Positions 3,109-49,510 of a DNA stretch of 64,000 nt are shown one piece after another. The notes under the pieces are model-generated. The model was not told the origin of the DNA. It saw only the letters and a program-made list of their open reading frames with translations, and did not search any database. A program made the translations under genes and the position numbers. The stretch comes from Rugalucina vietnamica (Eukaryota; Mollusca; Bivalvia; Lucinida; Lucinidae): the NCBI GenBank assembly GCA_964017185.1, contig OZ024870.1, positions 65,388,812 to 65,452,811 on the forward strand, in the 5' to 3' direction. The number at the start of each line of letters is the position of its first letter. Positions within the stretch are counted from its first letter, which is position 1.

Positions 3109-3210
3109 TGCTGACGCAGTTGTGTACCCCTGGTTAGACAGCCTCTGGGAGAAACTGATGAGCCTCTACCCCTTACCCCCAGGCCAGGAAATTATACCAG
3201 CTTCTGTCAG
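3109..3210 (+). CDS. NDOR1: NDOR1 exon (FMN-FAD linker)
   Basis: Reads ADAVVYPWLDSLWEKLMSLY, then PLPPGQEIIPASVR. The PWL..LW..L..LYPLPPG signature closes the FMN domain and starts the linker of NDOR1. Acceptor TTTTCAG, donor CAG|GTAATT. Entry and exit phases fit the neighbouring exons. Confidence 0.93.
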
Positions 3211-3558: not shown

Positions 3559-3747
3559 ACCATCTTCGAAGTACAGAATTGATTTCATTGAAAGCGGTGA
3601 AGATGTCATGCAGTTTGATGGTTTGCCAAGGTGGCATCACCCTACACCATTTCCTGCTAGAGTTATCAGTAATGACAGAGTTACACACCCTGACCATTTC
3701 CAAGATGTCCGCCTAGTTCGACTAGATATATCAGGCTCTGACATAAG
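3559..3747 (+). CDS. NDOR1: NDOR1 exon (start of FAD-binding domain)
   Basis: Begins PSSKYRIDF, continues PFPARVISNDRVTHPDHFQD and ends VRLVRLDISGSDI. The VISN.RVT...HFQDVR block is the NDOR1 start of the cytochrome P450 reductase-type FAD domain. Acceptor TTTTTTTCAG, donor AAG|GTGGGT. The open frame runs past the donor into intron, so the true exon end rests on the downstream match. Confidence 0.93.
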
Positions 3748-6105: not shown

Positions 6106-7352
6106 ACAAATCGTGTCCGCTCTATAACTTGAAAACCATTAAAGATTTTTCAATGAAACTTGGTACACTTGTAAACCAAGATGAGACGATGTGTCATGCA
6201 CAAGAACCATAACTCTAGCTTGAGTATTTTTGGAGTTATTTCCCTTTGATTATTTTCGATACAATTTCGTGTCCGCTGTATAACTTGAAAACCGTTAAAG
6301 ATTTTTCAATGAAACTTGGTACACTTGTAAACCACGACGAGACGATGTGTCGTGCACAAGAACCATAACTCTAGCTTGAGTATTTTTGGAGTTATTTCCC
6401 TTTGATTATTTTTGATACAATTTCGTGTCCGCTGTATAACTTGAAAACCGTTTAAGATTTTTCAATAAAACTTGGTACACTTATTAAGCCTGATCAGACG
6501 ATGTGTCATGCACAAGAACCATATTTCTGGCTTGAGTATTTTATGAGTTAGTTCCCTTTGATTATTTTCCATACAATTTCGTGTCCGCTTTATAACTCGA
6601 AAACCGTAAGAGTTATTTCAATGAAACTTGGTACACTGATAAAGCACAATGAGATAATGTGTCATGCTAAAGAACCATACCTCTTGCTTGCATATCTTTG
6701 GAGTAATTTCCCTTTGATTATTTTCCATACAATTTCGTGTCCACCCTATAACTTGAAAACCGTAAGAGAAATTTCACTGAAACTTGGTACACTTATAATG
6801 CATGTTGAAACGATGTGTCATGCGCAAGAATTATAACTCTTTCTTTCATATCTTTGGAGTTATTTCTCTTTGATTATTTTTCCATACAATTTCATGTCCA
6901 CTCTATAACTTGAAAACCATAAGAAATATTTCAATGAAACTTGGTACACTTATAAAGCACAATGAGATGATGTGTCATGCTAAAGAACCATAACTCTTGC
7001 TTGCATATCTTTGGAGTTATTTCCCTTTGATTATTTTTCATACAATTTTGTGTCTGCTCTATAACTCAAAAACCATTAGAGATTTTTCAATGAAACATGG
7101 TACACTTATAAAGCATGATGAGACGATGTGTCATGCTCAAGAATCATTACTCTTGCTTTCATATCTTTGGAGTTATTTCCCTTTGATTAATTTCCATACA
7201 GTTTCGTGTCTGCTCTATAACTTGAAAACCGTAAGAGATATTTCAATGAAACTTGGTACACTTATAAAACAGAATGACAGGATATGTGATGCACAAGAAC
7301 TATAACTCTTACTTGCATATTTTGGACATGCACGTAGAAAGGGGGGAGACAT
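6019..7352 (+). repeat. P-A element with eight 156-bp tandem units
   Basis: Opens with hairpin TATGTCTCCCCCCGACAGG / TCGGGAGACATA, followed by (GTCT)n at 6067-6100. Eight units follow whose CGTGTCC marks lie at 6112, 6268, 6424, 6580, 6736, 6893, 7049 and 7205, a period of 156 with one step of 157. Each contains TTGAAAACCGTTAAAGA, GAAACTTGGTACACTT and TTTGGAGTTATTTCCC. It ends with a GGGGGGAGACAT repeat of the start. Pearl/HINE-like by architecture. Confidence 0.9.
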
Positions 7353-8110: not shown

Positions 8111-8232
8111 CTACAGTCCAGGTGATGTGGCTATGGTTGTCCCTCAGAACATGGTGGACACAGTTGATGATTTTATATCCTTCTTTCACCTGAAGCCAGA
8201 CCAGTTACTGAGACTTCATCAAACAGATTCAG
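8111..8232 (+). CDS. NDOR1: NDOR1 exon (FAD domain)
   Basis: Reads YSPGDVAMVVPQNMVDTVDD, then FISFFHLKPDQLLRLHQTDS. The PGDV..V.PQN segment and the DPDQ-like turn match the FAD domain of NDOR1. Acceptor TTTACAG, donor CAG|GTAGTG. An M6 element ends only about 22 bases upstream of the exon, so the acceptor tract is partly element-derived. Confidence 0.93.
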
Positions 8233-8824: not shown

Positions 8825-9414
8825 CTGTATTCATTCTAATTAGCGCACATGCTCCAATAAGCGCACACCCTGATGGGTTCTGAAAAACTTGCATAAGCGC
8901 ACACTGCTGGACGAGCATATTGGTATTATACTTCAGTTTTGCGCATTAAAACCGTATTTACTTCAAGCAAACGTAATTTTGAATGATAAAACACCATTTT
9001 GCAACGATTGGAACGCTTAAATGTCATCATAAATGAGCCGCATCGTGAGAAAACCGGATTTTTGCCTAGGCGAAAACAAAGGCGCAGATCAGCTTCGCGG
9101 TAACCGCGAAGCTGATCAGCGCCTTTGTTTTCGCTACACGGATAGTACAATTCCTCTTCTACTTAAATCCGAAATTTCAAGCTTCTAGCTCTTTTCTGAG
9201 CTTGTACAGGTCGGTTTGTGTTGGACCTGGTCGGAAACCCCGAAGCCCGGTTTTCTCGCGTCGAGGCTCAAATTATATATTTGGCATGGTTATTACAGCA
9301 GTCTATGTGTTGTTTTTGTTTGTAGTGTGCGCTAATTAGTACGATATTTTGTTCACTAACTTTAAGGTATTTTGAAAAGTTAAGCGCACTGTGCGCTAAT
9401 TAGAACGACTACAG
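8825..9414 (+). mobile_element. M8 element (GCGCAC family), nested in M7
   Basis: Ends CTGTATTCATTCTAATTAGC and GCTAATTAGAACGACTACAG, flanked by TA on both sides, consistent with a Tc1/mariner-type target. The subterminal part has repeated TAATTAGCGCAC / AATAAGCGCAC motifs. It is itself interrupted by the M1 copy at 9034-9270. Confidence 0.82.
9034..9270 (-). mobile_element. M1 MITE nested in M8 nested in M7
   Basis: Full-length reverse copy, AA flanks. Innermost layer of a three-deep nest inside one NDOR1 intron. Confidence 0.93.
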
Positions 9415-9536: not shown

Positions 9537-9706
9537 ATGCCCCAGTACCAAATATACCCCGGCCTTGTACAGTGAGATTTCTAGTCACAAATTACCTGGA
9601 TATAAACTGTGTTCCCCGCAGATCTTTCTTTGAAATGTTGCTGTATTTTGCTGATGATGAGCTGGAGAGAGATAAACTGAAGGATTTTTGCTCTCCAGAG
9701 GGACAG
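9537..9706 (+). CDS. NDOR1: NDOR1 exon (FAD domain, connecting region)
   Basis: Encodes DAPVPNIPRPCTVRFLVTNY, LDINCVPRRSFFEMLLYFAD and DELERDKLKDFCSPEGQ. The LDI..VPRRSFFE.L block is a hallmark of the connecting domain of diflavin reductases. Acceptor TTTTTCTAG, donor CAG|GTAAAA. The upstream intron is filled to within about a dozen bases of the acceptor by the triple-nested elements at 8732-9524. Confidence 0.95.
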
Positions 9707-11363: not shown

Positions 11364-11411
11364 GATGATTTGTTCACATACTGTAACAGAGTGAAAAGAA
11401 CAACTTTAGAG
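11364..11411 (+). CDS. NDOR1: NDOR1 short exon (48 bp)
   Basis: A 16-residue exon reading DDLFTYCNRVKRTTLE, matching the conserved E.LF.YCNR..RT.LE motif of NDOR1. Phase 0 on both sides; acceptor TTGCAG, donor GAG|GTAAAT. It is too short to be found by ORF length. An M1 element ends 23 bases upstream of it. Confidence 0.93.
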
Positions 11412-12245: not shown

Positions 12246-12481
12246 TGAGCCGCCTCGTGGGAAAACCAACAATCTGCATAGGCGAAAACAAAGGCGCAGA
12301 TCAGCTTCGCGGCAACCGGGAAGCTGATCAGCGCCTTTGTTTTCGCTTCTCGGATAGTACAATTCCTCTTCTACTTAAATCCGAAATTTCAAGCTTCTAG
12401 CTCTTTTCTGTAACTCTACAGGTCGGTTTGTGTCGGACCTGTTCGGAAACCACATTGTTGGTTTTCCCACGAGGCGGCTCA
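12246..12481 (-). mobile_element. M1 MITE
   Basis: Full length, AA flanks; TIR variant TGAGCCGCCTCGTGGGAAAA. Confidence 0.92.
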
Positions 12482-12946: not shown

Positions 12947-13054
12947 GTGTTTCACGACTTCCCGAAGACCAGTGCCAACATTCCGTTTGCCTATTTCTTT
13001 GATCTCATACCAGTGCTGCAACCTAGAGCTTTCTCTATAGCGTCATCTATAATG
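12947..13054 (+). CDS. NDOR1: NDOR1 exon with FAD-binding R-x-F-S motif
   Basis: Reads VFHDFPKTSANIPFAYFFDL, then IPVLQPRAFSIASSIM. RAFSIASS is the FAD phosphate-binding motif (R-x-[YF]-S) of the ferredoxin reductase-type fold, here in NDOR1 form after LIPV..PR. Phase 0 at both ends; acceptor TTTCAG, donor ATG|GTAAAC. An M1 copy starts about 17 bases after the donor. Confidence 0.95.
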
Positions 13055-13069
13055 GTAAACTGTGTCAAG

Positions 13070-13416
13070 TTATGAGAAAAACTGGATTTTTACCTATGCA
13101 AAAACTGGATTTTTACCTATGCAAAAACTGGATTTTTACCTATGCAAAAACTGGATTTTTACCTATGCAAAAACTGGATTTTTACCTATGCAAAAACTGG
13201 ATTTTTACCAATGCGAAAACTAGATTTTTACCTATGCGAAAACAAAGGGGCAGATCAGCTGTGCTGTTACTGCACAACTGGTCAGCACCTTTGTTTTCGT
13301 AACATGGATAGTACAATTCCTTTTCTTCCTAAATCCATCTTCTGTGACTGCACAGGCTGGTTTGTGTCAGACCTGGTCAGAAACCCCGAAGACCGGTTTT
13401 CTTGTGTCTCGGCTCA
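13070..13416 (-). mobile_element. M1 MITE with internal 23-bp expansion
   Basis: Starts with ATGAGAAAAACTGG (the TGAGCC tip is lost) and ends GGCTCA. The region just inside the TIR has expanded into the tandem array at 13077-13241. It starts about 17 bases after the NDOR1 exon donor at 13054. Confidence 0.85.
13077..13241 (+). repeat. 23-bp tandem repeat inside M1
   Basis: Seven units of AAAAACTGG-ATTTTTACC-TATGC; the last two diverge to CAATGC and CTAG. In other M1 copies this subterminal stretch occurs once (AAAACCGGATTTTTGCCTATG). Confidence 0.95.
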
Positions 13417-14586: not shown

Positions 14587-14785
14587 GCACATCCAAATGA
14601 AATACAACTTCTAATGGCTGTGGTGAAGTATAAAACCAGGATTAAAGCTCCGAGACGAGGCGTCTGCTCTACATGGTTGTCCAGCTTGAACCCGGCTGCT
14701 GACACTATGGTACCAGTCTGGGTAAAGAAGGGAACCATAAGGTTTCCTAGCAACAAGGATACTCCTGTGATTATGGTTGGGCCAG
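14587..14785 (+). CDS. NDOR1: NDOR1 exon (FAD/NADPH domain junction)
   Basis: Starts AHPNEIQLLMAVVKYKTRIK, contains APRRGVCSTWLSSL, then the loop and VPVWVKKGTIRFPSNKDTPV ending IMVGPG. The PRRG.CS.WL motif and VIMVGPG (start of the NADPH phosphate-binding loop) identify NDOR1. Acceptor TTGCAG, donor CCAG|GTAATA. An M1 copy begins 8 bases after the donor. Confidence 0.95.
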
Positions 14786-17841: not shown

Positions 17842-18280
17842 ATATTTCTGTATTTGTTATTCTAGAATAGTGTATGAAGGTATTTCCACCAAGATGTACG
17901 TATGTATTTATCAGAAAACGTATTATTCACCATTTTTGCTGATAATAGGAAACAGCAATATGGTAAATTTTAAGCTTTCTACCAGAAAATTGTAGCTTTG
18001 TGTGGAAATACTTTCATACATTGTAGTTAGATGACTGCAGATCCTGATTGTGGTAACAGTTTTGTCTAAAATTTATCCAGCATTCCACACAGATGTGAAC
18101 AGAATCAAACAAGGGAGCAACTTGTAAATGGCTGATAAGCAATTTAGTGAGGCCACCAAAATACATATTGGGACATAAATTAATCTGCATTTGTTGGACC
18201 AACATTTGTTGGACCAACTGCACATACATGCACAAAAATATAGAAAGAATTACTATCAGTATTCCTGATAAAATCACAAT

Positions 18281-18517
18281 TGAGCCACCGCATGAGAAAA
18301 CCAACAATTTGCATATGCGAAAACAAAGGCACAAACCAGCTTCCCAATAACCGCGAAGCTGATCAGCGTCTTTGTTTTCGCTACGCAGATAGTACAATTC
18401 CTCTTTTTCTTAAATCCAAAATTTCAAGAGTCTAGCCTGCTTCTGTGACTGTACAGCCTGATTTGTGTCGGATGTGGTCGGAACTCCAAATTGTTGGTTT
18501 TCTCATCCACAGGCTCA
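18281..18517 (-). mobile_element. M1 MITE inside element A
   Basis: Full length; apex diverged (CTTCCCAATAACCGCGAAG). Confidence 0.88.
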
Positions 18518-18607
18518 ATTTTCCTTTGTACAGGTAAATTTTATAACAAGTATTAGATTTTAAGATCGGCATCCCCTTAAACCCCGACTGTTTTTCGCCT
18601 CGGAGGT

Positions 18608-18886
18608 CATTACGAAAACATGCCCATGCAATATATAGAGATTTTTTTCAAAAGCCAAAATTGAAAATTTCATTGGAAAATTTTTGATATTTTTCTTATT
18701 TTTGCTCAAAACATAGATTGTGGGTACACGTTAGAACCGCATCGGCAAGGCGGTTCTAACGAGAACCCACAATTTATGTTTCGGAGCAAAAATAAGAAAA
18801 ATAAGTATACCCCTGCAAACCCCAGTTTTTCTATATAAGAGTGGGGTTTATGGGGGTATACATTTCACGGACATGTTTTCCTGATG
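18608..18886 (+). mobile_element. M4 MITE inside element A
   Basis: Complete ends (CATTACGAAAACATGCCC / ACATGTTTTCCTGATG); good central hairpin with GCATCGGCAAGGCGG apex. Confidence 0.88.
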
Positions 18887-18999
18887 TTAAATTCCGACAC
18901 GTCCCCGCTATATGGGGGTGCACATTCTTTCGTTGTTAAGTGGCAGAATAAGCGGAAGAAAGGTCATTGTACCAAAGCATGACAGAAGTTCGTGTATTA

Positions 19000-19210
19000 C
19001 ATTAACGATCATACATTAGTGGTCATTTCATAGGCGTGTATCATAAATTTCATATGAAATGTAAGATTTTTATTATAAGAGTTTAGAGATTTTTTTTTTC
19101 TTTGATAAAATATCGTTGTCACGGACGTTACTAATTAATATGTTATTACACATGTGGTCATCTCATTTTATGGCATGTCGGACATGACCTTATCCACTGA
19201 ATAACATAGA
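19000..19210 (-). repeat. CATATGA-type repeat fragment
   Basis: Reverse relative of 960-1330 (GTGGTCATTTCATAGG, TTTCATATGAAATG, GGACATGACCTTATCCACTG). Confidence 0.6.
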
Positions 19211-19354
19211 TGTGATGCGATATATGAACGTTCGTTGAGCTACGGGCGTGGCAGCTACTTCGGTCATGCAGCCCAAAGACGTTTCTTTTGGGTCACATTT
19301 TTATGTATATACCGTAATTTTACCAAATCTGTCATTTGTCCTATATAAATGTAT

Positions 19355-19620
19355 ACACCCTATATACTGTCGGATGCAACCAAATTCTTACAGCGCAGAT
19401 TGTTGCAATATCACAAGACACATGCCGAAAGGGAATGTGTTGACTGGAAGCCGGATAAATTAGGCAACAACCTACAACACAGCAATGAACTTTTCACTGT
19501 GGGTTGTTGCTCAATTGATCTGACTACCAATCAGTAAACTCCATTTTTGTCAGGTTTCGTGTGTCGCTGCATCAATCTGCGCTGTAAGAATTTGATTGCA
19601 TCCAGCGGTATACGGCGGTG
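19355..19620. repeat. Inverted repeat around a hairpin
   Basis: GGATGCAACCAAATTCTTAC-AGCGCAGATTG at about 19371-19402 is answered in reverse by CAATCTGCGCTG-TAAGAATTTGATTGCATCC at about 19573-19603. The spacer has its own small stem (GCAACAACC / GGTTGTTGC). Confidence 0.7.
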
Positions 19621-19957
19621 AGGATAGAAAGGTAAAGAAATAACCTTTAATAATCAAGAAAGTCAGACTTAAACGATGGTCAGTCCTAAAAGGGAATAAG
19701 TCACGATTAACGACCGACATTAACATTGTCACATTTTTAAACATTAAATCACTGCCAGCACGAATTAACAGAATTCGAGGCTAACGCACAAGCAGGCTGA
19801 AAAAACAAATAGATCCACTGTTGATACGAATAACATAGAATGCAGAAATGCGTATCAGTCAGAAGGTTTATTTTCATAAATTTAAAGTAGTTCCCCTGGG
19901 GTGTTACTACCCAATTTATAGTTTCACGGCAATCACTAATATTTCCTTAGAAGCCTC

Positions 19958-20130
19958 CGTGACATGGTGGCCAAGCTACTAGCCTTGTAAATCAGGGGTC
20001 GTGTGTTCGATCCCGGGCTTCTCCAGTCTTTCGGATGAGACTTTAAACCGAGGCCCCTTCTCCATATGACCTGACAGCTGTTGAGTGGGAAGTAAAACAC
20101 CAATCAAACAAAGAAACAAACTAATATTTC
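19958..20130 (+). mobile_element. tRNA-derived SINE
   Basis: A box GTGGCCAAGCTACTAGC, B box TGTTCGATCCC, 3' core TTTCGGATGAGACTTTAAAC ... CATATGACCTGACAGCTGTT, tail CAATCAAACAAAGAAAC. Same family as the inverted copy at 30975-31090. Confidence 0.75.
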
Positions 20131-21449
20131 CGAAAATATTTCCAGATGTCGTTAGCAGTTAACGGATGGCTCATCGGAACTAAAATTGCAATTTGGTGAT
20201 GACGCTGTGTAATTGCTCAAAATATTACTGACAAAATTACTACAGTTGGGGTTGAGTTTAAAATGAATATATATACATCTACATATTTTAAACAACAAAC
20301 GGTAATCCGTTTGGGAACGATTTTCACACAAGTTCTGGCAATGATTCAGGTGAACGCTAGCGTTTTACACTTGTCGGTCTAGCACTTTAATTTCCCAACA
20401 AGAAAGGGTCGAAGATGATGCGGAATATGAAATTACCGGGTCGAAGATGACACGGAATATGAAATTACCTTGATCAAAAATAGCTCTAGAGTGTTTATAA
20501 TCGGAAATTAATGCAATTAGTTTTGATTGCCCGATGACTCACAAAATTCGCCCCGTTGTCTCACACAACTTGCCCGATGCCTCACATTATGTAAATGCAC
20601 CTAGCATTAAATCCCTTTGCAATGCTTGGCGAGATTTTATTTTTTGTGGGAATTTTCCAGTATACTATTATTCATTTGCAAATACCAACGTGACCTTCTT
20701 GGTCCATTTCTTTTACTAGAAAATCAAACGAAAATGTGTTTTCGTGACCTTGAAAGGCATGCCCTCTAAAATGGGGCGCACAATCACGCGTTTCTTGGAA
20801 TATTTATTTACAAACTGTTTACATAATAAAGAACAATAATGATTTCTACAGCTCCTGCAGCAAACAGAATTTTGACATACAACGTCACCCAGCCATGTCG
20901 GAACAAAACAAAAAGAAAATTAAAACTACGTACCGTGTCGCCATTGTAAATCCCGATGTGTCACCGACACCTCGCCCGATGGTTCACATTTTTCCGATTA
21001 ACCCCCGTTGATTCACCGTTTTTCTAATACACCGTTTCCATAGGTTGACTTTTCAGGAGTGAGAAAAAACTATTAATTTTTTATAGGGACTGTCAATATT
21101 TATGAAATCCAGATATGATATTTACAAAAAAATCACAGATTTTTTTCTTTCTTTAATTACTGAAATGGATCATGGAAAATCAAATAATTGAATGAGATAC
21201 AAATTTTTGACGCATTATTTTTTTTACAAATAATTGGACGAAATACGACTTTTGACCTTATTTTAGCATGTAATACCACATTCTGCCAACAAAGTGGTGA
21301 GGATATTGTGCCAAATGCTCGTAACTTAAGCAATTTTTGTGATCTTTTATGTGTTCTTATTGGCCTAGGACTACGATAATTTGATAGAATGTTCGCTGAA
21401 TGACTAATATTCCCATGATGTAAAAAAGCAATTTGACAAGAAGTCTACT

Positions 21450-21727
21450 CATCAGGAAAACATGTCCGTGAAATGTATACCCCCTTAAACCCCACTTTTA
21501 TATAGAAAAACTGGGGTATGCAGGGGTATACCTATTTTTTTTATTTTTGCTCCAAAACATAGATTGTGGGTACTCGTTAGAACCGCCTCGGCGAGGCAGT
21601 TCTAACTTATACCCACAATCTATGTTTTGAGCAAAAATAAGAAAAATATCAAAAATTTTGAGCCGAAATTTTTCAATTTTAAAGTTAAAAAAATCCCTAT
21701 GTATTGCATGGACAAGTTTTCGTAATG
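21450..21727 (-). mobile_element. M4 MITE
   Basis: Full length in reverse, ends CATCAGGAAAACATGTCC and GGACAAGTTTTCGTAATG. Confidence 0.88.
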
Positions 21728-21823
21728 CAACAAGGTTTTGGTACCAGACTGATGATATGGCCATGCAAAAATTTTAGTGCTCACAGTAAAGCTCACTAAT
21801 TACAATTGCCTGGTTATGCCATT

Positions 21824-22047
21824 TAAGCCTTCAAGTGAGAAACCAAAGGTCAGAGTTTCGACCAGGTAAGACTGACACAAACCAGGCTGTACTACAACAG
21901 AAAATACATGTACATGTAGTAAGCTTAAAATTTTGGATTTAGTAAGAAGAGGCATCATACTATCTATGAAGCGAAAACAAAGGCGCTGATCAGCTGTGCA
22001 GTACCTGCACAGCTGATCTGCATCTTTGTTTTAGCATATGAATCATT
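21824..22047 (+). mobile_element. M1 MITE, diverged
   Basis: The stem is recognisable (GGCGCTGATCAGCTGTGCAG); ends degraded. Lies 33 bp before the NDOR1 exon at 22081. Confidence 0.8.
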
Positions 22048-22080
22048 GGTTCTATGCTTATTTCTCTCCTTCTCTAACAG

Positions 22081-22140
22081 GTACAGGGTGTGCTCCGTTT
22101 AGAAGTTTTATTCAAGAAAGAGCGGTGGAGAATATTGGTG
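22081..22140 (+). CDS. NDOR1: NDOR1 exon (NADPH-binding TGxAPFR)
   Basis: Encodes TGCAPFRSFIQERAVENIG, completing the VGPGTG-x-APFR NADPH-binding loop begun in the previous exon. The usual V of GTGVAPFR is C here. Acceptor CTAACAG; donor GGTG|GTAAGA. The preceding intron (14786-22080, about 7.3 kb) carries the 5.6-kb inverted-repeat element at 15430-21047. Confidence 0.92.
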
Positions 22141-22289
22141 GTAAGAAAAATATTTCAAGTTTTAATTTCAGATTAATAATGGTCTCTATTTTGTAAATTG
22201 AATTAATATTGCTTTTGGGAAAGTGTATCTTATATGTATCTTCATACATCAGAGACCCAAGTTTGCACCAAATTTACATGTGCTGCAAA

Positions 22290-22497
22290 GTGGGAAAACA
22301 GGGCTGACACAAACCGGTCTGCACAGTCGTGAAGAAGGCTACAAGCTTTTAATTTCTGATTTGAGGAAAGGGAAGAGATCATACAATCCATAAAAAGTAA
22401 ACTCGCTGATCAGCTGCCCAGTTATAGATCTGTGTCTATGTTTAAGCATATGTCAAAAAGAAGTTTTTTTTATGCAGCACTGGTGCAGCTCATAAAT
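22290..22497 (+). mobile_element. M1 remnant
   Basis: Strongly decayed; keeps GACACAAACCGGTCTGCACA, CGCTGATCAGCTG and GGTGCAGCTCA. Confidence 0.6.
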
Positions 22498-22574
22498 TAG
22501 AATTGCCATACCCAAAGCATTTCATGTCAAAACTTTCAGTCTGTTTATTTTTTTTTTTTTTTTCACTGGTGCAG

Positions 22575-22693
22575 GGTGTATTTTGTTCTTTGGCTGCCGC
22601 AGCGAGGCTAAAGATTTCTACTGCAAGGGAGAATGGGAGGAGACCAAAAATAGGGGGCTTCTCAAACTATACACAGCTTTCTCAAGAGATCAG
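22575..22693 (+). CDS. NDOR1: NDOR1 exon whose 3' end seeds a tandem array
   Basis: Reads GCILFFGCRSEAKDFYCKGE, then WEETKNRGLLKLYTAFSRDQ. FFGCR...DFY...EW..........AFSR(D/E)Q is the NADPH-domain block of NDOR1. Acceptor GGTGCAG, donor CAG|GTTTGT. The last ~40 coding bases plus the first ~12 intron bases are repeated in tandem for the next 0.9 kb, so about 18 near-identical donor sites follow. The first donor keeps phase 0, which agrees with the next exon and with the family protein. Confidence 0.92.
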
Positions 22694-23590
22694 GTTTGTA
22701 AATAGGGGTCTTCTCAAACTATACACAGCTTTCTTGAGAGGCCAGGTTTATTAACAGGGGACTTCTCAAACTGTACACAGCTGTCTCTAGAAACCAGGTT
22801 TGTTAAAAGGGGCTTCCCAAACTGTACACAGCTTACTTGAGAGGCCAGGTTTGTTAACAGGGGACTTCTCAAACTGTTCACAACTGTCTCTAGAGACCAG
22901 GTTTGTTAAAAGGGGCTTCCCAAACTGTACACAGCTTTCTCAAGAGACCAGGTTTGTAAACAGGGGGCTTCTCAAACTGTACACAACTTTCTCAAGAGAC
23001 CAGGTTTGTAAACAGGGGGCTTCTCAAACTGTACACAGCTTTCTCAAGAGACCAGGTTTGTAAACAGGGGGCTTCTCAAACTGTACACAGCTTTCTCAAG
23101 AGGCCAGGTTTGTTAACAGGGGACTTCTCAAACTGTACACAGTTTCTCAGGAGACCAGGTTTGTAAACAGGGGGCTTCTCAAACTGTACAAAGCTTACTC
23201 AAGAGACCATATTTGTTAACAGGGGGCTGCTCAAACTGTACACAGCTTTCTCAAGAGGCCAGGTTTGTTAACAGGGAACTTCTCAAACTGTACACAGCTT
23301 TCTCAAGAGACCAGGTTTGTAAACAGGGGGCTTCTCAAACTGTACACAGCTTTCTCAGGAGACCAGGTTTGTAAACAGGGGGCTGCTCAAACTGTACACT
23401 GCTTTCTGAAGAGACCATATTTGTAAACAGGGGGCTGCTCAAACTGTACACAGTTTCTCAAGAGACCAGGTTTGTATATAGGAGGCTTCTCAAAATGTAC
23501 ACAGCTTTCTCTAGAGATCAGGTTTGTCAACAGGAGGCTTCCCAAACTGTACACAATGTTCTCTAGAGACCAGGTTTGTTAAGCATCACA
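22642..23590 (+). repeat. 52-bp tandem array derived from NDOR1 exon end plus 5' splice site
   Basis: About 18 head-to-tail units of 52 bp start inside the NDOR1 exon ending at 22693 and run through the following intron. Successive CAG|GTTTGT junctions fall at 22693, 22745, 22797 and so on. Each unit keeps roughly 40 bases of coding sequence (GGGGCTTCTCAAACTGTACA core) followed by the donor and a short TAAACAG stretch. The motif AAATAGGGG occurs at 22648 in the exon and at 22700 in the intron, exactly one period apart, so short homology may have started the duplication. There are no unique spacers and no cas genes, so it is not CRISPR. Confidence 0.95.
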
Positions 23591-23635
23591 ATAACTTGTC
23601 ATGTAATAAATATCCCCTTATATCCTACTATAATA

Positions 23636-23875
23636 TGAGCAGCATCGTGAGAAAACCGGATTTTTGCCCATGCAAAAACAAAGGCGCAGATCAGCTTTGA
23701 AGCGGTAACCGCGAAGCTGATCAGCGCCTTTGTTTTCGCTACACGGATAGTAAAATTTCTCTTCTTCTTAAATCCCAAATTTCAAGCTTCTAGCCTGCTT
23801 CTGTGACTGTACAGGTCGGTTGGTGTGAGACATGGTGGGAAACCCCGAAGACCGGTTTTCTCGCGTCGCGGCTCA
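23636..23875 (-). mobile_element. M1 MITE
   Basis: Full length with TA/TA flanks; a 3-base insert in the stem (AGCTTTGAAGCGG). Follows the 52-bp array. Confidence 0.92.
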
Positions 23876-23883
23876 TATAGAAC

Positions 23884-24110
23884 AACTTGGGTGTACAGGG
23901 GTATACTTACTTTTCCTATTTTTGACCCAAAACATCGACTTAAACTGCTTCACTGCGGCGGTTCTAGCATGTACCCAAAATCTATGGGCTTTGAGCTAAA
24001 ATTAAAAAATTATCAAAAACTAATTCAGCTGTAAAATTTAAATAAAATTTCAGCTGAAAATTTTAAACTTTTACATCGCTGTTTATTGCATGGGCATTTT
24101 TTCATTATTA
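23884..24110 (-). mobile_element. M4, diverged
   Basis: Retains GGGTGTACAGGGGTATAC, GCTTCACTGCGGCGG, GTACCCAAAATCTATG and a TTGCATGGGCATTTTTTCAT end. Confidence 0.7.
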
Positions 24111-24202
24111 GCCAGTAAACATTACTACATGTACTTTAATATTTATATTTGTCAGAAGTTCAGCTACTGTACTGTCACCAAAATGTGCACTGAGTTACTT
24201 AT

Positions 24203-24399
24203 GAAAAAAAAACAGGTGTTTTGCCTGTGCCAAAACAAACACGTAGATCAGCTGTGCCCACTACACAGATTGTACACTGCCTCCTCTTCTTAGATCTGAA
24301 ATTTCAATGTTCTTACTTATTTCTGTGAGTGAGCAGGCTAGTTTGTGTCGGACCAAGTCAGAAACCCTGAAGACTGTTTTTCTCGTGATGCTGCTCATA
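24203..24399 (-). mobile_element. M1 remnant
   Basis: Apex and part of the stem deleted (GTAGATCAGCTGTGCCCAC); the right side is intact to GATGCTGCTCA. Confidence 0.75.
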
Positions 24400-24464
24400 C
24401 AGTTACCTCATCCCCATCACAAAAAGACCACTTGCTCCAGGTAACCCTCTGGTTTCACTTTCAG

Positions 24465-24559
24465 GAGCATAAAGTTTATGTTCAGCATAAGATAGAGGAG
24501 TTTGGACAAGATGTATGGGAGGCTTTGGATAAAGAGAAAGCTTGTTTCTTTATAGCAGG
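24465..24559 (+). CDS. NDOR1: NDOR1 exon (NADPH domain)
   Basis: Reads EHKVYVQHKIEEFGQDVWEA, then LDKEKACFFIAG. KVYVQH...E....VW..L....A.F..AG is the conserved penultimate block of diflavin reductases. Acceptor TTTCAG, donor AGG|GTAGGT (two bases of the Gly codon). An M1 copy starts 12 bases after the donor. Confidence 0.95.
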
Positions 24560-24571
24560 GTAGGTGATATA

Positions 24572-24808
24572 TGAGCCGCATCGTGAGAAAACCGGATTTT
24601 TGCCTATGCGAAAACAAAGGCGCAGATCAGCTTCGCGGTAACCGCGAAGCTGATCAGCGCCTTTGTTTTCGCTACTCGGATAGTACAATTCCTCTTCTAC
24701 TTAAATCCGAAATTTCAAGCTTCTAGCTCTTTTCTGAGCTTGTACAGGCCGGTTTGTGTCGGACCTGGTCGGAAACCCCGAAGACCGGTTTTCTCGCGTC
24801 GAGGCTCA
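24572..24808 (-). mobile_element. M1 MITE 12 bp after an NDOR1 donor
   Basis: Near-consensus; TA/TA flanks. Confidence 0.93.
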
Positions 24809-25259
24809 TATGGGATGCATCATAAGAAAACCAACATTTTGCATATGTGAAAACAAAGACGCAGATCAGCTTCTCAGTAACTGCAAAGCTGATCAGCGCC
24901 TTTTTTTTCACTACTCGGATAGTACATCTTCTCTAATATCTCCTTATATTCGAAATTTCAATCTTCTAGCCTCCTTCTGTGACTGTACAGACTGGTTTGT
25001 GTTGTAGTCCGGCACAAAATCAATTTGACCTGGAATTGTGGTATAAAGTTTTTTTTTTTACAGATTCTTGTAGGTTAGACATTGTCATTAACGATTCTGG
25101 ATGATGACAGCCTGTCATCATTGAGCATTTTGTGAAATTCAAGATGACATCCAAGATGTCACAAAATAATGAAAATCCATATACTATTGTACAATGTGCC
25201 CCTTAAAATGAATAAAAATGCCATGTTTCCTCACAACTTAGCAGGTATTACTATATATA

Positions 25260-27640
25260 ACATAAGTTATTGTTTCTTGGTTTAAGGATCAAAATTGACA
25301 TCCAAGATGGCGGCCAAAATAGGATATCTTGACGAATACAAATTTTTGCACAATATATACATATTTGAGCTTCTAATGCATACATATTTTGATCATTTAG
25401 GCCTAAAAATGACATATTAAGTTTTGTTTTCTTTATAAATTCATGCATGTAAGACATTGTCAATAAAGAATCCAACTTCTGACACCTTGTCAGCATAAAA
25501 CAATTTCGGAAAATCAAGTTGTCATCTGAAAATATTTTCATGCACTGTTTTATAGTTTGCCTCTAACAGAATGAAAAATACAATATATCATATTATTTAG
25601 TACATATTGACATATCTAACATTAGTAACCTTTTCCAGGCTTATTTCTCATTTTAATGCACCATTAAACACGTTTAATTCTTAGGAATACTAATGAAAAA
25701 ATAACAAGAGCTTCACTGTATATGTTGCTCTCACACAGTCTGTCTGGTCAATATTCATTTTATTTTGGGTTTGCTGTCATAGAGAACAAACAGCAGCTTA
25801 TCAAATCTATAGGCTATGGTCTTAAACAGGATGCTTAGTTGCTTAGTTTTAGAAAGGAAGCAATGATATCCACAAACTAGTTAAAAAAAGCAAAATATGT
25901 GTTTCAATTAAAAGTATTGACATGAAAACACTTAAAAGCAGATAGATATACCAGATATTCACTCTTGTAAGTCATGAAAATCTAAAAGAAGATTCAATTG
26001 TAGCGGGTGACACTGATGTACGTTTTTGTTACTTTAAATATCAACACCTCACGACTCCTGGTACCGTTTGAAAGCAAGAACTGCCATAAGCCGACAGACT
26101 ACGTATAAAAGAATGCTTAACTAACACCTGATTTAATAAACGTTCATGTTCTATAAAGATTGGCTACTATTGCACGCTTATATACGTTGACCTAAAAAAT
26201 TGAAATTGTCAGTCATGCATTTTAAAATCAGAACTGCCAAGTATATTGCCAGAGTCATTTTGGTGGCTGACAAATGAGACCAAACTTTAACTGTCCCTCT
26301 TGAATACCACCAGACCGCCTTCTTTAATCAACTGAATTGCATTTTCGAAGTGAAACTGAAAGTCATAGCGCCGCATAGCGCAGTGGATTTGCTTAGGCTT
26401 GTAGGATATAAATAACACTGTGAGAAAAATTGTTTTTTGACTGCGTCCTTAGCTGCATAATTGTGGTTTTAGTGCATCTGCTTATAGCATGGGGTGTTAT
26501 AAGGGCTCAACTTTTTGGATGTAACAATTTTCCTAGGTTAAATATACTTTCAGATATCCTTGATCTATTTTGTATGTTCCATTCACTTTGACTTTTGAAT
26601 GTTTTGCCAAACTATGTTTAGTCTAGCATTAAAGTGTGTTTATCAGTAATTTAGCTGTAATTGTGAAACTTGATTTTTATTATTGATTTAGTGTTTGTCC
26701 TTCATTCACATGAATGTGTTTGTATGTTTCAAGCACACACCTTCAGCTGTTGCCCTTGACTTATATTTCATGCTCCACTGACTCTAGCCAAATTAATTTC
26801 ATATTACTTAACTGGCTGAATGTGTAACTGTCTTTGAATTATTCTTTAAAAAGTTCTTTAAACTTGGAGCCCTTGATTTCCTTCCGGGTTGTTGGCTTTG
26901 ATTTATAAGTTGAGGCTAACGTTTGGATTGTGTAATCATGTCTGTTGATTGACATTGATGTACCTTGACCTGGTATACGCCTTAGTCTGATTTTTATACT
27001 CTGTTGACTTTGATTACATTTATGTCAGGGCTTGCACGAAGGTGTGTTTTAGACAGCTTGGTGTGAATCCGTAAATAGTAATTTCCCCAGGACATTGATC
27101 TATATCGTATGCTACCGATATTTGCTGATATAGATCCTTAGATATGAAAGGTCCTTTGTACATACTTCGGCTGAAGCAGCCCTGGTACATGACCTACACT
27201 GTGTGTTGTAATTATTTCATCCACTGCAGTTGCAAAATCGACAGTGGCGTTCTTATCATCAATGCTGTTGATTTTTTTTAGAGTAAATATCTTCTAGATC
27301 TAAACCCAACACGACTTATAAATAAGAAAAAAAAACTGTACAAAAGTATCCACTGTGTACTTAATATGTAAGCTAGTTTTTTGGCTTTATCTTTGTGGAG
27401 GCAATGCATTTGATTATATTCGTATTCAATTCAAGCGAAACTATCTTCATTTATACTATTATAATTGCCAATTTGATGATTTTACATGTATCATGCTGCT
27501 GATGAATCTGTGAAGGAATGATTATGCTATTTTCATCATCTGTTTACACTGTGTTCATTTATTATGGATCCTTTTTGATAATATGTGTAAAAATAAAGTG
27601 AAATTACATAAATAGAATGGCAGCACTGCATGTTTTAAAT
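25260..27640. other. Interior of element B, no gene
   Basis: AT-rich with no convincing frame on either strand. 25280-25540 repeats motifs of the element's arms (CATCCAAGATGGCGGCCAAA, AATTCATGCATGTAAGACAT). The remainder up to an AATAAAG-containing stretch near 27593 is not recognised. Confidence 0.5.
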
Positions 27641-28689
27641 CTGCACTAGACGGAATATTTCCATCTGTATTCCGTTAGACCTCTCCATACCAACGGAAAC
27701 GACATGTATTGAGCCCTTGGTCGAAAATGAAAAATCATCGAAGACGCCAAATAAATTGAAAATTATGTTATGTTATATCTTTTCTGACTGATATGGCTTA
27801 GTTTTTACATAATCTAGATGTTAAGATACGCAGATTCATAAAATACATCATGTTTTCTGAGGAAAATATCACATGTGTCTATAAATAGATAAGGGGAGAC
27901 TACTGAAGAATATGGGACACAAAGTAGAAAATTGATTGCTTTTTGCAAATTAATTGAAATTCTGCAGGCTAACCTGATGTTTACAAAAAGATTTTTGTAT
28001 TTTCTAACAAAACATAATAAAAATTCTAATCATTTTCATCAAATAAAGCAGCTATAAGCTTCTTACGAAATCCATAATCTGTTCGACCATAGTTTAAAGG
28101 CAACTAATGCTAAGCTGTCACGAGAGAGGAGCGAGGTCACGAAGTGTATCGGAGTGCAGGTTAGCCAGCTGATGTAAAGCTGCACTTGTAATAGCTTCAA
28201 TGATAATTCAAAGCCACTAACTCCTTAAAATATATATAAAGCATTTGCTTAGATAAACGCGGTATTTTAGTGTATATTTTACAACAATAATATACAAAAA
28301 GAGAAGAAACTGTGTTGTTGTTCTTGGTTGCCATTTTGGATGCAATCTTAGATATGATAATTTTACAGCTTGAAAAGTTATATAATCTTCAACAGCCCAA
28401 CAAACATTCAAAAAACCAATCACTTTCAGATCAGTGTAATTGACTCTATAGTTGGAAATCTGTACCTGGTGGATATTTTGGATGCCATCTTGAATTTCTG
28501 ACAAGTCTCGACGTCATGAGATCATTATTTTGATTCTATAGTGTCAGTGTCTAAATCAGAACAAGCTCAAATATATACCGTATAAATATATGGTAAAACA
28601 GTTAAAATCTTTAAAAAAATCTAATTTTGGCAGCCATCTTGGATGCAAGTTTTGATTTTCAAACCAGAAAGCATTAACTGAAGACAATT

Positions 28690-32931: not shown

Positions 32932-33076
32932 GAATGCCAAACAGATGCCTGAAAATGTGAGAGATGCCCTGAAATCTGTGATCATGAAAGAAGGGAACAT
33001 GGACAGTTCTGACGCTGAAACGTACTTGAGAACTTTAGATCAAACAAAACGTTACCAAGCAGAAACATGGTCTTGA
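32932..33076 (+). CDS. NDOR1: NDOR1 terminal exon and stop
   Basis: Reads NAKQMPENVRDALKSVIMKE, continues GNMDSSDAETYLRTLDQTKR and ends YQAETWS-stop (TGA at 33074-33076). GNAK.MP..V..AL ... RYQ.ETW is the canonical diflavin reductase C-terminus, and the final Trp stacks on FAD/nicotinamide in the family. Acceptor TTTTCCAG. The intron before it (24560-32931, 8.4 kb) contains the 6.4-kb element at 25005-31417. No canonical AATAAA was seen nearby; ATTAAA occurs at about 33091 and 33272. Confidence 0.95.
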
Positions 33077-38469: not shown

Positions 38470-40650
38470 TATTTATGTTAGTTTTATATTTTTTGTGTAT
38501 AGAATATGATCCTGTCATCTCGTCAATCAATTGATACCAATTTCAGTTCTCTAGAGCTTTTGGTTGCTGAGATATTGTCAATTCTGTTGGTATATTCCCT
38601 TCATTTGTCTATGTTTTTCTCTTATATCTAAAGTTTTCTTAAATTTTGGCCACAAGATAGTCAACTTTTTCCTGTATCTTATTATATAATTATAAATTAT
38701 TGTCATATCTATCATTTGATACCAATTTCAGCTCTCTAGGATTTTTTGTTAATGAGATATAAACGTTTATATTGGTATACCCCCTCCATTTTTCTTTGAT
38801 TTTTATCTAATATTTTAAGTTCTCATCAATATTCAAACAACAAGAAAGTTAGATCATTTATATGTCTAATCATACAATTATAGAACATTATCATACCAAT
38901 CATATGATACCAATTTCAGCTCTCTAGAGCTTTTGGTTGCTGAGTTATTAACCTTTTCATTGGTATACCCCCTCCATTTTTCTGTGATTTTTCCCTTAAA
39001 TTTAAAGTTTTTATCAATATTCGAAAAACAAGAAAGTCAGAATGTTTGTGTGTCTTACCACATGGTTATAGAACATAATCCTAGCAATGATTTGATACCA
39101 ATTTCAGCTCTCTAGAGGTCTTGGTCACCGAGATATTAGCAATTTTATTGGTATACCTCCTTCCATTGGCAGTGATTTTTCTGCTATAACTTATGTTTTC
39201 TTAAATATTTGAGCAACAAGAAAGTTAGCTTGTTTATATATCTTATTATATGATTGTAGAATATTGTCATAGCAATCATTTGATACTAATTTCAGCTCTC
39301 TGGGACATTGGGTTGCAGAGATATAAACGTTTACATTGGTATACCCCCTCCATTTTTCTTTGTGTTTTATCTAATATTAAAAGTTATCTTCAATATTTGA
39401 ACAACAAAAAAGATCGATTATTTAAATGTTTTATCACATGATTATAGAACATCATACCAATCATTTGATACCAATTTCAGCTTTCTAAAGCTATTGGTCA
39501 CTGAGGTATTAGCAATTTTATTGGTATACCTCCTTCCTTTGGAAGTGATTTTTCTGCTATATCTTATGTTTTCTTAAATATTTGAGCAACAAGAAAGTAA
39601 GCTTGTTTATATATCTTATTACATGGTTATAGAATATTGTCAAAGAAATCATTTGATATACATTTCAGCACTCTAGAACATTTGGTTGCTGAGATATAAA
39701 CGTTTATATTGGTATACCCCTCCATTTTTCTTTGATTTTTATCTAATATTTAAAGTTCTCATCAATATTCGAACAACAAGAAAGTTAGATTATTTATATG
39801 TCTAATCATACAATTATAGAACATTATCATACCAATCATTTGATACCAATTTCAACTCTCTAGAGCAATTGGTCACTGAGATATTAGCAATGTCATTGGT
39901 ATACCCCCTTCCTTTGGCAGTGATTTTTCTCTTATATCTTAAGTTTTCTTAAATATTTGAGCAACAGAAAAGTCAGCTTGTTTATATATCTTATTACAAG
40001 GTTATAGAATATTGTCAACACAATCATTTGACACCAATTTCTGCTCTCTATGGCTTTTGGTTGCTGAGATATAAACATTTCTATAGGTATACCCCCTCCA
40101 ATTTCTGTGATTTTTCTACTATATTTATTGATTTCATCAATAGTCTAACAGCAGAAAAGTCTGATTGTAAATGTACCTTATTTCAGGGTTTAAGAATGTT
40201 ATCATAGCAATCATTTGTTATAAGTTTCAACTCTCTATGGCCTTTGGTTGCTGAGATATAAACATATCTGTAGGTATACCCCCTCCATTGTTCTGTGATT
40301 TTTCTCTTCTACTGAAAGTTCTTATCAATATTTGAACATCAAGAAAGCCAGATTCTTTCTGTATCTTATCACATGATTATAGAACATTATCATAACAATC
40401 ATTTGATACACATTTCAGCTCTCTTACAGTTTTTGGTCACAGAGATACTAGCAATTTTGTTTGGTATACCCCTTCCTTAATCTGTTTCTTTTCTAATATC
40501 TGAACTTCTTTTTAATATTTGAGCATTAAGATAGCCAGCTTGTTTATACATCTTATTACATGATTATAAAACATTGCCAAAGCAATCATTTGATACCTAT
40601 TTCAGCTTTCTATGTCTATCAGTAGCCAAGATACATGTGGTAATAGAGGT
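38470..40650 (+). repeat. Satellite core of element C, ~12 units of 179-190 bp
   Basis: Units are marked by ATTTGATACCAATTTCAGCT near 38540, 38720, 38900, 39090, 39280, 39460, 39650, 39840, 40025, 40215, 40400 and 40590. Two unit types tend to alternate: TGCTGAGATATAAACGTTT and TCACTGAGATATTAGCAATT, suggesting a dimeric repeat of ~370 bp. The whole array is AT-rich with GGTATACCCCCTCC in each unit. Confidence 0.92.
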
Positions 40651-44324: not shown

Positions 44325-45827
44325 AGCTCACCTGAGCCGTTAGGCTCACAAGGTGAGCTTATAGGATGGCCATGATCCGGCGTCCGTCCATCCGTGGTCC
44401 GTTCACAATTTCAAAGATCTTCTCCTCTGAAACCACTTGGCCAATCAAAGCCAAATTTTATATGAAGCATCTATAGGAAGGGGGAACCAATGTGTATATA
44501 AGAAATCCAGGTCACATGACCAAGATGGCCGCCATGCCCATATATGGTAAAAACCCTTCAAAAGTCTTCTCCAGAACCGGTGGACCGATTTCAACGAAAC
44601 TTGGCATGAAGCATCGATGGCTCAAGCACTTCAATGTATATATAAATCATGGCCCTGTGATGACCTTGACCTATTTTACGGCAAGGTCAACATAGGTCGC
44701 CAATGCATTTGAATGGGGAAAACATTTAAAATGTCATTTTTAGTGAAAGTCTCGCAGGAAATGGGCAGTAGGACTGAATATTAATGGTTCTGAAAAAATT
44801 TGCACCCCAGGGGCTCATATGCCCCCACCCCGGGGCAATATACATGTATATTACCATAATATTCAAACTTCATCTCCTCCAAAACCGCGTGGCCAATTAA
44901 AGCCAAATTTTATGTGAGGCATCAATAGGAAGGGGTAATCAATGTGTATATAAATAATCAAGGTCACATGACCAAGATGGCCGCCATGCCCATATATGGT
45001 AAAAACCCTTTAGACATCTCCAGAACCGGTGGACCGATTTCAACGAAACTTGGCATGAAGCACCGATGGCTCAAGCACTTCAATGTATATATAAATCATG
45101 ACCCTGTGATGACCTTGACCTTTTTATGGCAAGGTCAACATAGGTCGCCTATGCATTTTAATGGGGAAAACTTTTAAAAAGTAATTTGAGGTGAAAATCT
45201 TGCAGGAATGGGTAGTTTGACTGAATATTAATGATTCTAAAAAAAATGGACTCAAGGGGCTCATATGCCCACACCCAGGGGCAATATACATGTATATTAC
45301 CAAAATATTCAAACATCTTCTTCTCTGAAACCAATTAGCCAATCAAAGCCAAATTTTATGTGAAGCAATTATAGAATGGGGGAACCAATGTGTATATAAA
45401 TGATCCAGGTCACATGATCAAGATGGCCGCCATGCCCATATATGGTAAAAACCCTTTCAAAATCTTCTTCTCTGGAACCGGTGGACCGATTTCAACAAAA
45501 CTTGGCATGAAACATCAATGGCTTAAGTACTACAATGTGTATATAAATCATGACCCTGTGATGACCTTGACCTATTTTACGACAAGGTCAACATAGGTTG
45601 CCTATGCCTTTGAATGGGGATAACTGTTATTTGTCGGTTGAAGGGAAAGACTTGCAGGAAATTGGCAAATGGACAGGATATTGATTATTACGAAGAAAAA
45701 TAATGGACACCAGGGAATCATCTGCCCCTTTACTGGGGCTTTTTTCCATAATATGCAAACATGTTTATTGGTATATACGTACAACAGATTTCAGGTGAGC
45801 GTTTACAGGACCATTGGTCCTCTGGTT
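44325..45827 (+). mobile_element. P-C element with three ~447-bp tandem units
   Basis: Opens AGCTCACCTGAGCCGTTAGG and closes CAGGTGAGCG...CATTGGTCCTCTGG. Units marked by AAAGCCAAATTTTAT begin near 44450, 44895 and 45343, each with GGTCACATGACCAAGATGG and GATGACCTTGACCT. The small frames in it are repeated by-products. Confidence 0.85.
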
Positions 45828-48105: not shown

Positions 48106-49510
48106 CACTAAACCATGAAAGTTAACTATAACTACCTAAGATTTAAAGGTCTCACGCATATTGTGAAAGAAGTGTGTTCATATACCAACTGAGTGCCAAG
48201 ACACAAGGCAAAATCACTGAACCGTGAAATAAGATCACACTGACCTATAAGTATTGCAGGGTCAAAGGTCTAGTGATACTTATTCATAACGTGAAAGAAA
48301 AATGATCATATACCCATTCAGTGTTGAGATATAAAGCAAAATCACTGAACCATGAAATTAGGTCATAGTGACCTATAAGTATGTTTGGGTTAAAGGTGTG
48401 GTCATACTCATTCGTAATCAGAAAGAAGTATGAAAAAATACCAACTGAGTGTCGAGATATAAGGCAAAATCACTGAACCATGAAATAGGGTCACAGTGAC
48501 CGAGGAATACTTTACGTTCAAAGGTCTTGTCATACTCATACATATCGTGAAAGAAGTATGTTCATATACCAATTGAGTGCAGAGATATAAAGGAAAATCA
48601 CTGAACCGTGAAATTAGGTCATATTGACCTAGGACTACTTTAGGGTCAAAGGTCTTGTCATACGCAAACATAGTGTGAAAGAAGTTTGTTCATAAACCAC
48701 TTGAGTGTCGAGATATAAGGCAAAGTCACTGAACCGTGAAATTAGGTCACAGTGACCTATAAGTATATTGGGGTCAAAGGTCTGGTCATACTCACTCATA
48801 ATCTGAAAAAAGTATGAAAATATACTAATTGAGTGTCAAGATATAAGGCAAAATCACTGAACCGTGAAATTAGGTCACAGTGACCTAGGACTACTTCAGG
48901 GTCAAAGGTCTTGTCATACGCAAACATACTTTGAAAGAAGTTTGTTCATAAACCATTTGAGTACCGAGATATAAGGCAAAAATTACTGAACCGTGAAATT
49001 AGGTCACAGTGACCTGTAAGTATATTGGGGTCAAAGGTCTGGTCATACTCACTCATAATCTGAAAAAAGTATGAAAATATACTAATCGAGTGTCAAGATA
49101 TAAGGCAAAATCACTGAAATTAGGTCACAGTGACTACTTCAGGGTCAAAGGTCTTGTCATACGCAAACATACTTTGAAAGAAGTTTGTTCATAAACCATT
49201 TGAGTACCGAGATATAAGGCAAAATCACTGAACCCTGAAATTAGGTCACAGTGACCTATAAGTATATTGGGGTCAAAGGTCTGGTCATACTCACTCATAA
49301 TCTGAAAAAAAGTATGAAAATATACTAATTGAGTGTCAAGATATAAGGCAAAATCACTGAACCGTGAAATTAGGTCACAGTGACCTATAAGTTTATTGGG
49401 GTCAAAGGCCTGGTCGTACTAACTCATAATCTGAAAGAAGTAAGAAAATATACTTATTGAGTGTCGAGATATAATGCAAAATCACTGAACCATGGAAAGT
49501 ATGTCAACCG
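48106..49510 (+). repeat. ~127-bp tandem array, 12 units
   Basis: AAGGCAAAATCACTGAACC marks fall near 48106, 48205, 48331, 48461, 48591, 48717, 48845, 48973, 49102, 49216, 49345 and 49473. From 48640 on, two unit types alternate (TCTTGTCATACGCAAACAT and TCTGGTCATACTCACTCATA), a ~256-bp higher-order period. Confidence 0.92.

Follow-up and report, generated by a model that had tools for sequence, protein, structure and literature searches.

Tandem duplications of exon-intron boundaries that resemble minisatellites are described in amphioxus, where they have been called mirages and affect the Adh3 gene and the globin genes BflGb6 and BflGb9 (PMC3087553). In that account AG or GT signals are found in many of the repeat units, RT-PCR suggested that regular splicing was undisturbed, and the multiplication of splice boundaries is proposed as a route to new introns. 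In the human 6-16/IFI6 (G1P3) gene a minisatellite supplies several donors, for which Turri, Cuin and Porter 1995 is cited (PMC2572611, PMC3618361, PMC2915984), and two downstream repeat units are described as working donors, with three mRNAs and distinct isoforms as the outcome (PMC4526556). In human segmental duplications, internal tandem repeats are also reported to change the exon/intron structure of genes (PMC2812944).

Here we analyse an array of this kind at the donor of an NDOR1-like gene of the bivalve Rugalucina vietnamica, using a window of 64,000 nucleotides, by which we mean the whole stretch of DNA studied. Tandem Repeats Finder places a tandem array of a 52-bp unit at 22648-23579, with 18.0 copies, 87% matches and a score of 1374. 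This agrees with the approximately 18 copies of 52 bp claimed in an earlier note on this DNA, but not with the extent of 22642-23590 given there. Cut at its donor-like ends the array divides into 18 units, 14 of 52 bp and four (units 4, 6, 10 and 16) of 51 bp, so that the period is not uniformly 52 bp as had been claimed. The pairwise identity between units has a mean of 0.87 and a range of 0.75-0.98.

The array crosses an exon-intron boundary. In the register of the repeat finder, unit 1 (22648-22699, + strand) is made up of the final 46 bases of the coding exon 22575-22693 followed by GTTTGT, spanning the donor at 22693/22694; there is an ambiguity of 2-3 bases, and the division into about 40 exonic and 12 intronic bases proposed earlier is to be corrected to 46 and 6. 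Units 2-18 follow at 22700-23579 on the + strand. The donor is exactly CAG/GTTTGT (the slash marking the splice junction) in 15 of the 18 units, that is, in unit 1 and 14 of the 17 later ones. Unit 2 has CAG/GTTTAT. In units 11 and 15 the sequence is CATATTTGT and the GT is gone, which leaves 16/18 units with a GT. That an exon end and its 5' splice site have been amplified to about 18 copies is upheld; the approximately 18 near-identical donors claimed come down to 15 that are identical, one variant and two without GT.

The array matches the published mirage minisatellites, and the kind of structure is therefore already known. As described for the amphioxus mirages, the tandem repeat spans an exon-intron boundary, the splice signal is present in many but not all units, and the inner units are homogenised with the edges excluded. 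The two outermost units at either end resemble the rest less closely than the inner units do (0.842 vs 0.881, permutation p = 0.011), a test that depends on our choice of two units per side as the edge, and such divergence at the edges is as expected of unequal exchange. Amphioxus mirages can involve 5' or 3' boundaries, here the donor, and the units of Adh3 measure 10-72 bp, compared with 52 bp here. BflGb6 is described with 6 or 3 units of 150-160 bp on the acceptor side, where the present array has 18 52-bp units on the donor side. In BflGb9 a 3' exon boundary is duplicated once (157 bp). The repeats of human segmental duplications are similar in that minisatellite expansion changes gene structure, sometimes activating cryptic splice sites, but they belong to primate-specific segmental duplications and have units averaging 30 bp in four copies. 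In the sequence-level features compared here the array thus corresponds to a mirage.

The host gene is probably of the diflavin reductase type. Twelve exons on the + strand between 2133 and 33076 can be joined without frameshift (2133-2231, 3109-3210, 3559-3747, 8111-8232, 9537-9706, 11364-11411, 12947-13054, 14587-14785, 22081-22140, 22575-22693, 24465-24559 and 32932-33076), giving a model of 484 amino acids that stays open to its stop. The 5' part of the gene, absent from the model, probably lies upstream of the window. PF00667 (FAD-binding, 5e-50) and PF00175 (NAD(P)-binding, 3.3e-14) are both found in the one open reading frame of the 484-residue model, and a search of the PDB gives similarity to P450 reductases over residues 1-483, i.e. 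the whole modelled part. The alignment to the P450 reductase 5gxu begins at its residue 141, and a search of the model, which lacks the 5' part of the gene, gave no flavodoxin (FMN domain) family at E 0.01. At E 1e-20 the PDB search returned P450 reductases and their relatives, with no chain named NDOR1 among the matches listed. The name NDOR1 is putative and was given from the human sequence; the 48-bp exon (11364-11411), which fits the model in frame, was located with an 18-residue query from human NDOR1.

The exon that enters the array (22575-22693, + strand) is assigned as an NDOR1-like coding exon, ...CILFFGCRSEAKDFYCKGEWEETKNRGLLKLYTAFSRDQ, by translation and homology, and is bounded by the acceptor tttttttttcactggtgcag and the donor CAG/gtttgt. 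On the same evidence the following coding exon (24465-24559, + strand; EHKVYVQHK...FFIAG) starts in phase 0. Donor 1 sets an intron of 1771 bp (22694-24464, + strand), in which units 2-18 are followed by a palindromic repeat near 23675-23736. The resulting Q/E junction, from 22693 to 24465 in phase 0, is covered by phmmer alignments to solved reductases, the query being a 91-residue peptide from parts of exons 22081, 22575 and 24465. The best match is to 4dqk (E 2.4e-14), in which a gap of one residue lies two positions ahead of the junction, and the alignment to CysJ (1ddg) has no gap at the junction. With the same 91-residue part as query no NCBIfam model reached its curated cut-off, the best scoring 81.4 of 432 bits. 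Pfam searches of single translated frames of 18001-28001 gave one chance-level match and nothing else; the reductase domain in this segment is detectable only after exon joining.

The window holds other repeats. The palindromic sequence in the intron belongs to a family with AAAACAAAGGCGC arms around CTGATCAG, found at 23675-23736, 24611-24669, 9073-9131 and 12285-12343 and looking like a miniature inverted-repeat element from its sequence. CTGATCAG itself occurs 28 times in the window, a count of the motif rather than of verified palindromes, and members of the family lie in introns of the NDOR1-like gene as well. A second tandem array in the same gene (13077-13243, 23 bp x 7.3, 97% matches) begins 23 bases past the exon end at 13054 and does not take in the donor; on visual inspection its unit is similar to sequence next to the palindromic element. 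Arrays of longer period lie at 38524-40612 (188 bp), 48151-49506 (128 bp), 6111-7326 (156 bp) and 44410-45629 (452 bp), and the region is thus rich in tandem repeats.

The array is a real enrichment in donors. Sites on the + strand with at least 7/9 matches to the donor consensus number 15 in 938 array bases, compared with 42 in the 63,050 bases outside, and sites with a duplex energy no weaker than that of donor 1 number 15 in the array and 85 outside. Chance is therefore rejected as the source of the donor density. The duplex energy calculated with the U1 5' end is -7.2 for donor 1 and equal for 14 of the 17 later donors, which have the same 9-mer. This 9-mer is well conserved, though not uniquely so within the unit: it contains five differences, ties with one of the 52 circular 9-base windows and trails three.

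Since 15 of the 18 units end in CAG/GTTTGT, each such unit could act as both acceptor and donor in recursive splicing, with the array excised piecewise. The 17 bases before the unit CAGs have a pyrimidine content of 0.41-0.59, set against 0.53-0.88 for 11 acceptors of the gene (scored with the 48-bp exon 11364-11411 excluded). There is an overlap with the weakest of these real acceptors (0.53-0.59), but no pyrimidine tract is visible next to the CAG, and we regard recursive splicing as extremely improbable.

The coding outcome of later donors is uniform. Any of them includes a TAG in the frame of the exon (22703-22705, + strand), and all 17 modelled later-donor transcripts end at it with ...SRDQVCK, so that VCK replaces the last 79 residues. 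A GT is present for 15 of the 17; the transcripts of units 11 and 15 are formal only, the GT having gone. An extension whose length is a multiple of three results for units 5, 6, 9, 10, 13 and 17. The expectation that every third later donor would be in frame fails because four units are of 51 bp, and in any case all 17 transcripts meet the stop at 22703. Among the modelled transcripts the full C-terminus is obtained from donor 1 only. No other donor gives the full protein, and we therefore infer that donor 1 is used. This differs from what is described for IFI6, as none of the 17 modelled transcripts here is an isoform with the full C-terminus. The unit of IFI6 is 12 bp in length, so extra units would keep the frame.

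Nothing local explains a preference for donor 1, because its strength is equalled and its structure is not more open. Preference by strength is rejected, as 15/18 units share the 9-mer and the U1 duplex energy. Preference by RNA structure is rejected too, with a predicted mean unpaired probability of 0.28 for donor 1, among the lowest of the 18 units, compared with a mean of 0.43 for the region. SRSF1 and enhancers placed between competing donors are reported to favour the intron-proximal donor (PMC5585400). Applied by analogy, this principle would point to the last unit here and, if anything, tells against the reading in which donor 1 is used. Exon length, which is 119 bases at donor 1 and rises to 999 at donor 18, may be a factor in the choice of donor, as would be expected if exons are recognised as short units.

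NDOR1 acts in iron-sulfur protein assembly, and the array could set the dose of the reductase if some transcripts used later donors, gained the stop at 22703 and were degraded, copy number tuning expression. The identical donors of 14/17 later units, with GTTTAT in one more, would allow this, as would the in-frame stop in 17/17 modelled extended exons with a further junction (24559) downstream; a stop upstream of a further junction is the usual trigger layout for nonsense-mediated decay. Against it, some stretches of the unit are better conserved than the donor 9-mer, and the loss of GT in 2/17 later units fits a neutral expectation of about 2.4 (with the rate taken from the thirteen 52-bp units). 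The two losses, in units 11 and 15, consist of an identical change and could go back to one event. Selection to keep the later donors is not apparent, and a role in setting dose seems unlikely. That the array is a splicing brake tuned by copy number, with the 15 equal donors competing, the later ones drawing off a genuine part of both U1 and the splicing, their transcripts ending at the unit 2 stop and being destroyed, and the number of units setting the dose, we likewise consider unlikely.

The unit pattern fits a neutral minisatellite born from the end of the exon. A 24-base unit core, allowing up to three mismatches, occurs 14 times in the window, 14/14 within the array, and a mean of 0 times in 100 dinucleotide-preserving shuffles. 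No copies of the unit were seen elsewhere in the window, where the best ungapped match on either strand (28/52) equals that in one shuffled sequence, and within the window the unit as a dispersed satellite is rejected on this ground. An exact match to a 36-base consensus was sought in viral_contigs, an unlikely place for animal sequence, and none was found. The array consensus encodes the same 15 residues, NRGLLKLYTAFSRDQ, as unit 1, from which it differs at three coding positions, all (3/3) synonymous. In the other thirteen 52-bp units there are 41 differences, 17 synonymous and 24 non-synonymous, and the contrast with unit 1 does not reach significance (Fisher p = 0.086, counting 52-bp units only and none of the four of 51 bp). 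Because unit 1 is conserved coding sequence, the consensus codes for the same residues and no copy was seen elsewhere in the window, the array most likely derives from the exon.

The ends of the array bear on how it began. The left flank, GAGACCAA, has no match to the tail of the unit, and the right flank starts TAAGCATC, where the heads of units are mostly (A/T)AA(C/T/A)AGGG. The breakpoints thus share about 2-3 bases. The 9-base identity AAATAGGGG that had been put forward as a possible seed of the duplication is simply how unit 1 and unit 2 both begin, and is therefore a product of the duplication.

The array could also be an artefact of assembly, or its copy number could have been collapsed or expanded. 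One amphioxus mirage appears to be aberrantly assembled in a genome draft (PMC3087553). Here the units differ from one another by up to 25%, and simple stutter would not be expected to leave such differences; a dimer is repeated in units 3-4 and 5-6 (96 of 103), and the flanks are clean. Several units very probably exist and their exact number may be wrong, and we consider an artefactual origin very unlikely.

We think it probable that the array is a mirage-type minisatellite that arose from an exon end, and that the mRNA is made through donor 1. A segment of about 52 bp across the exon/intron boundary of the NDOR1-like gene would have undergone tandem duplication at breakpoints sharing only about 2-3 bp, and the pattern of the units suggests growth to 18 through unequal exchange or slippage. 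Unit 1 would still be coding exon, with the working mRNA made from donor 1, and units 2-18, as spare and for the most part identical donors, would be spliced out as part of the intron. As use of these donors adds a stop codon, they are presumably little used, or their transcripts are likely to be destroyed.

Choice among equal 5' splice sites is commonly studied with artificial constructs. The array offers a natural set, in which 15 donors have the same nine bases and similar surroundings and differ mainly in their distance to the start of the exon and to the next acceptor, with a clear readout in that the full C-terminus comes from the first donor only. Such a large and clean set of 15 identical donors, together with a clean coding readout, is what makes this array notable among those of its kind. 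The locus indicates that a splice boundary can multiply while the gene stays open.
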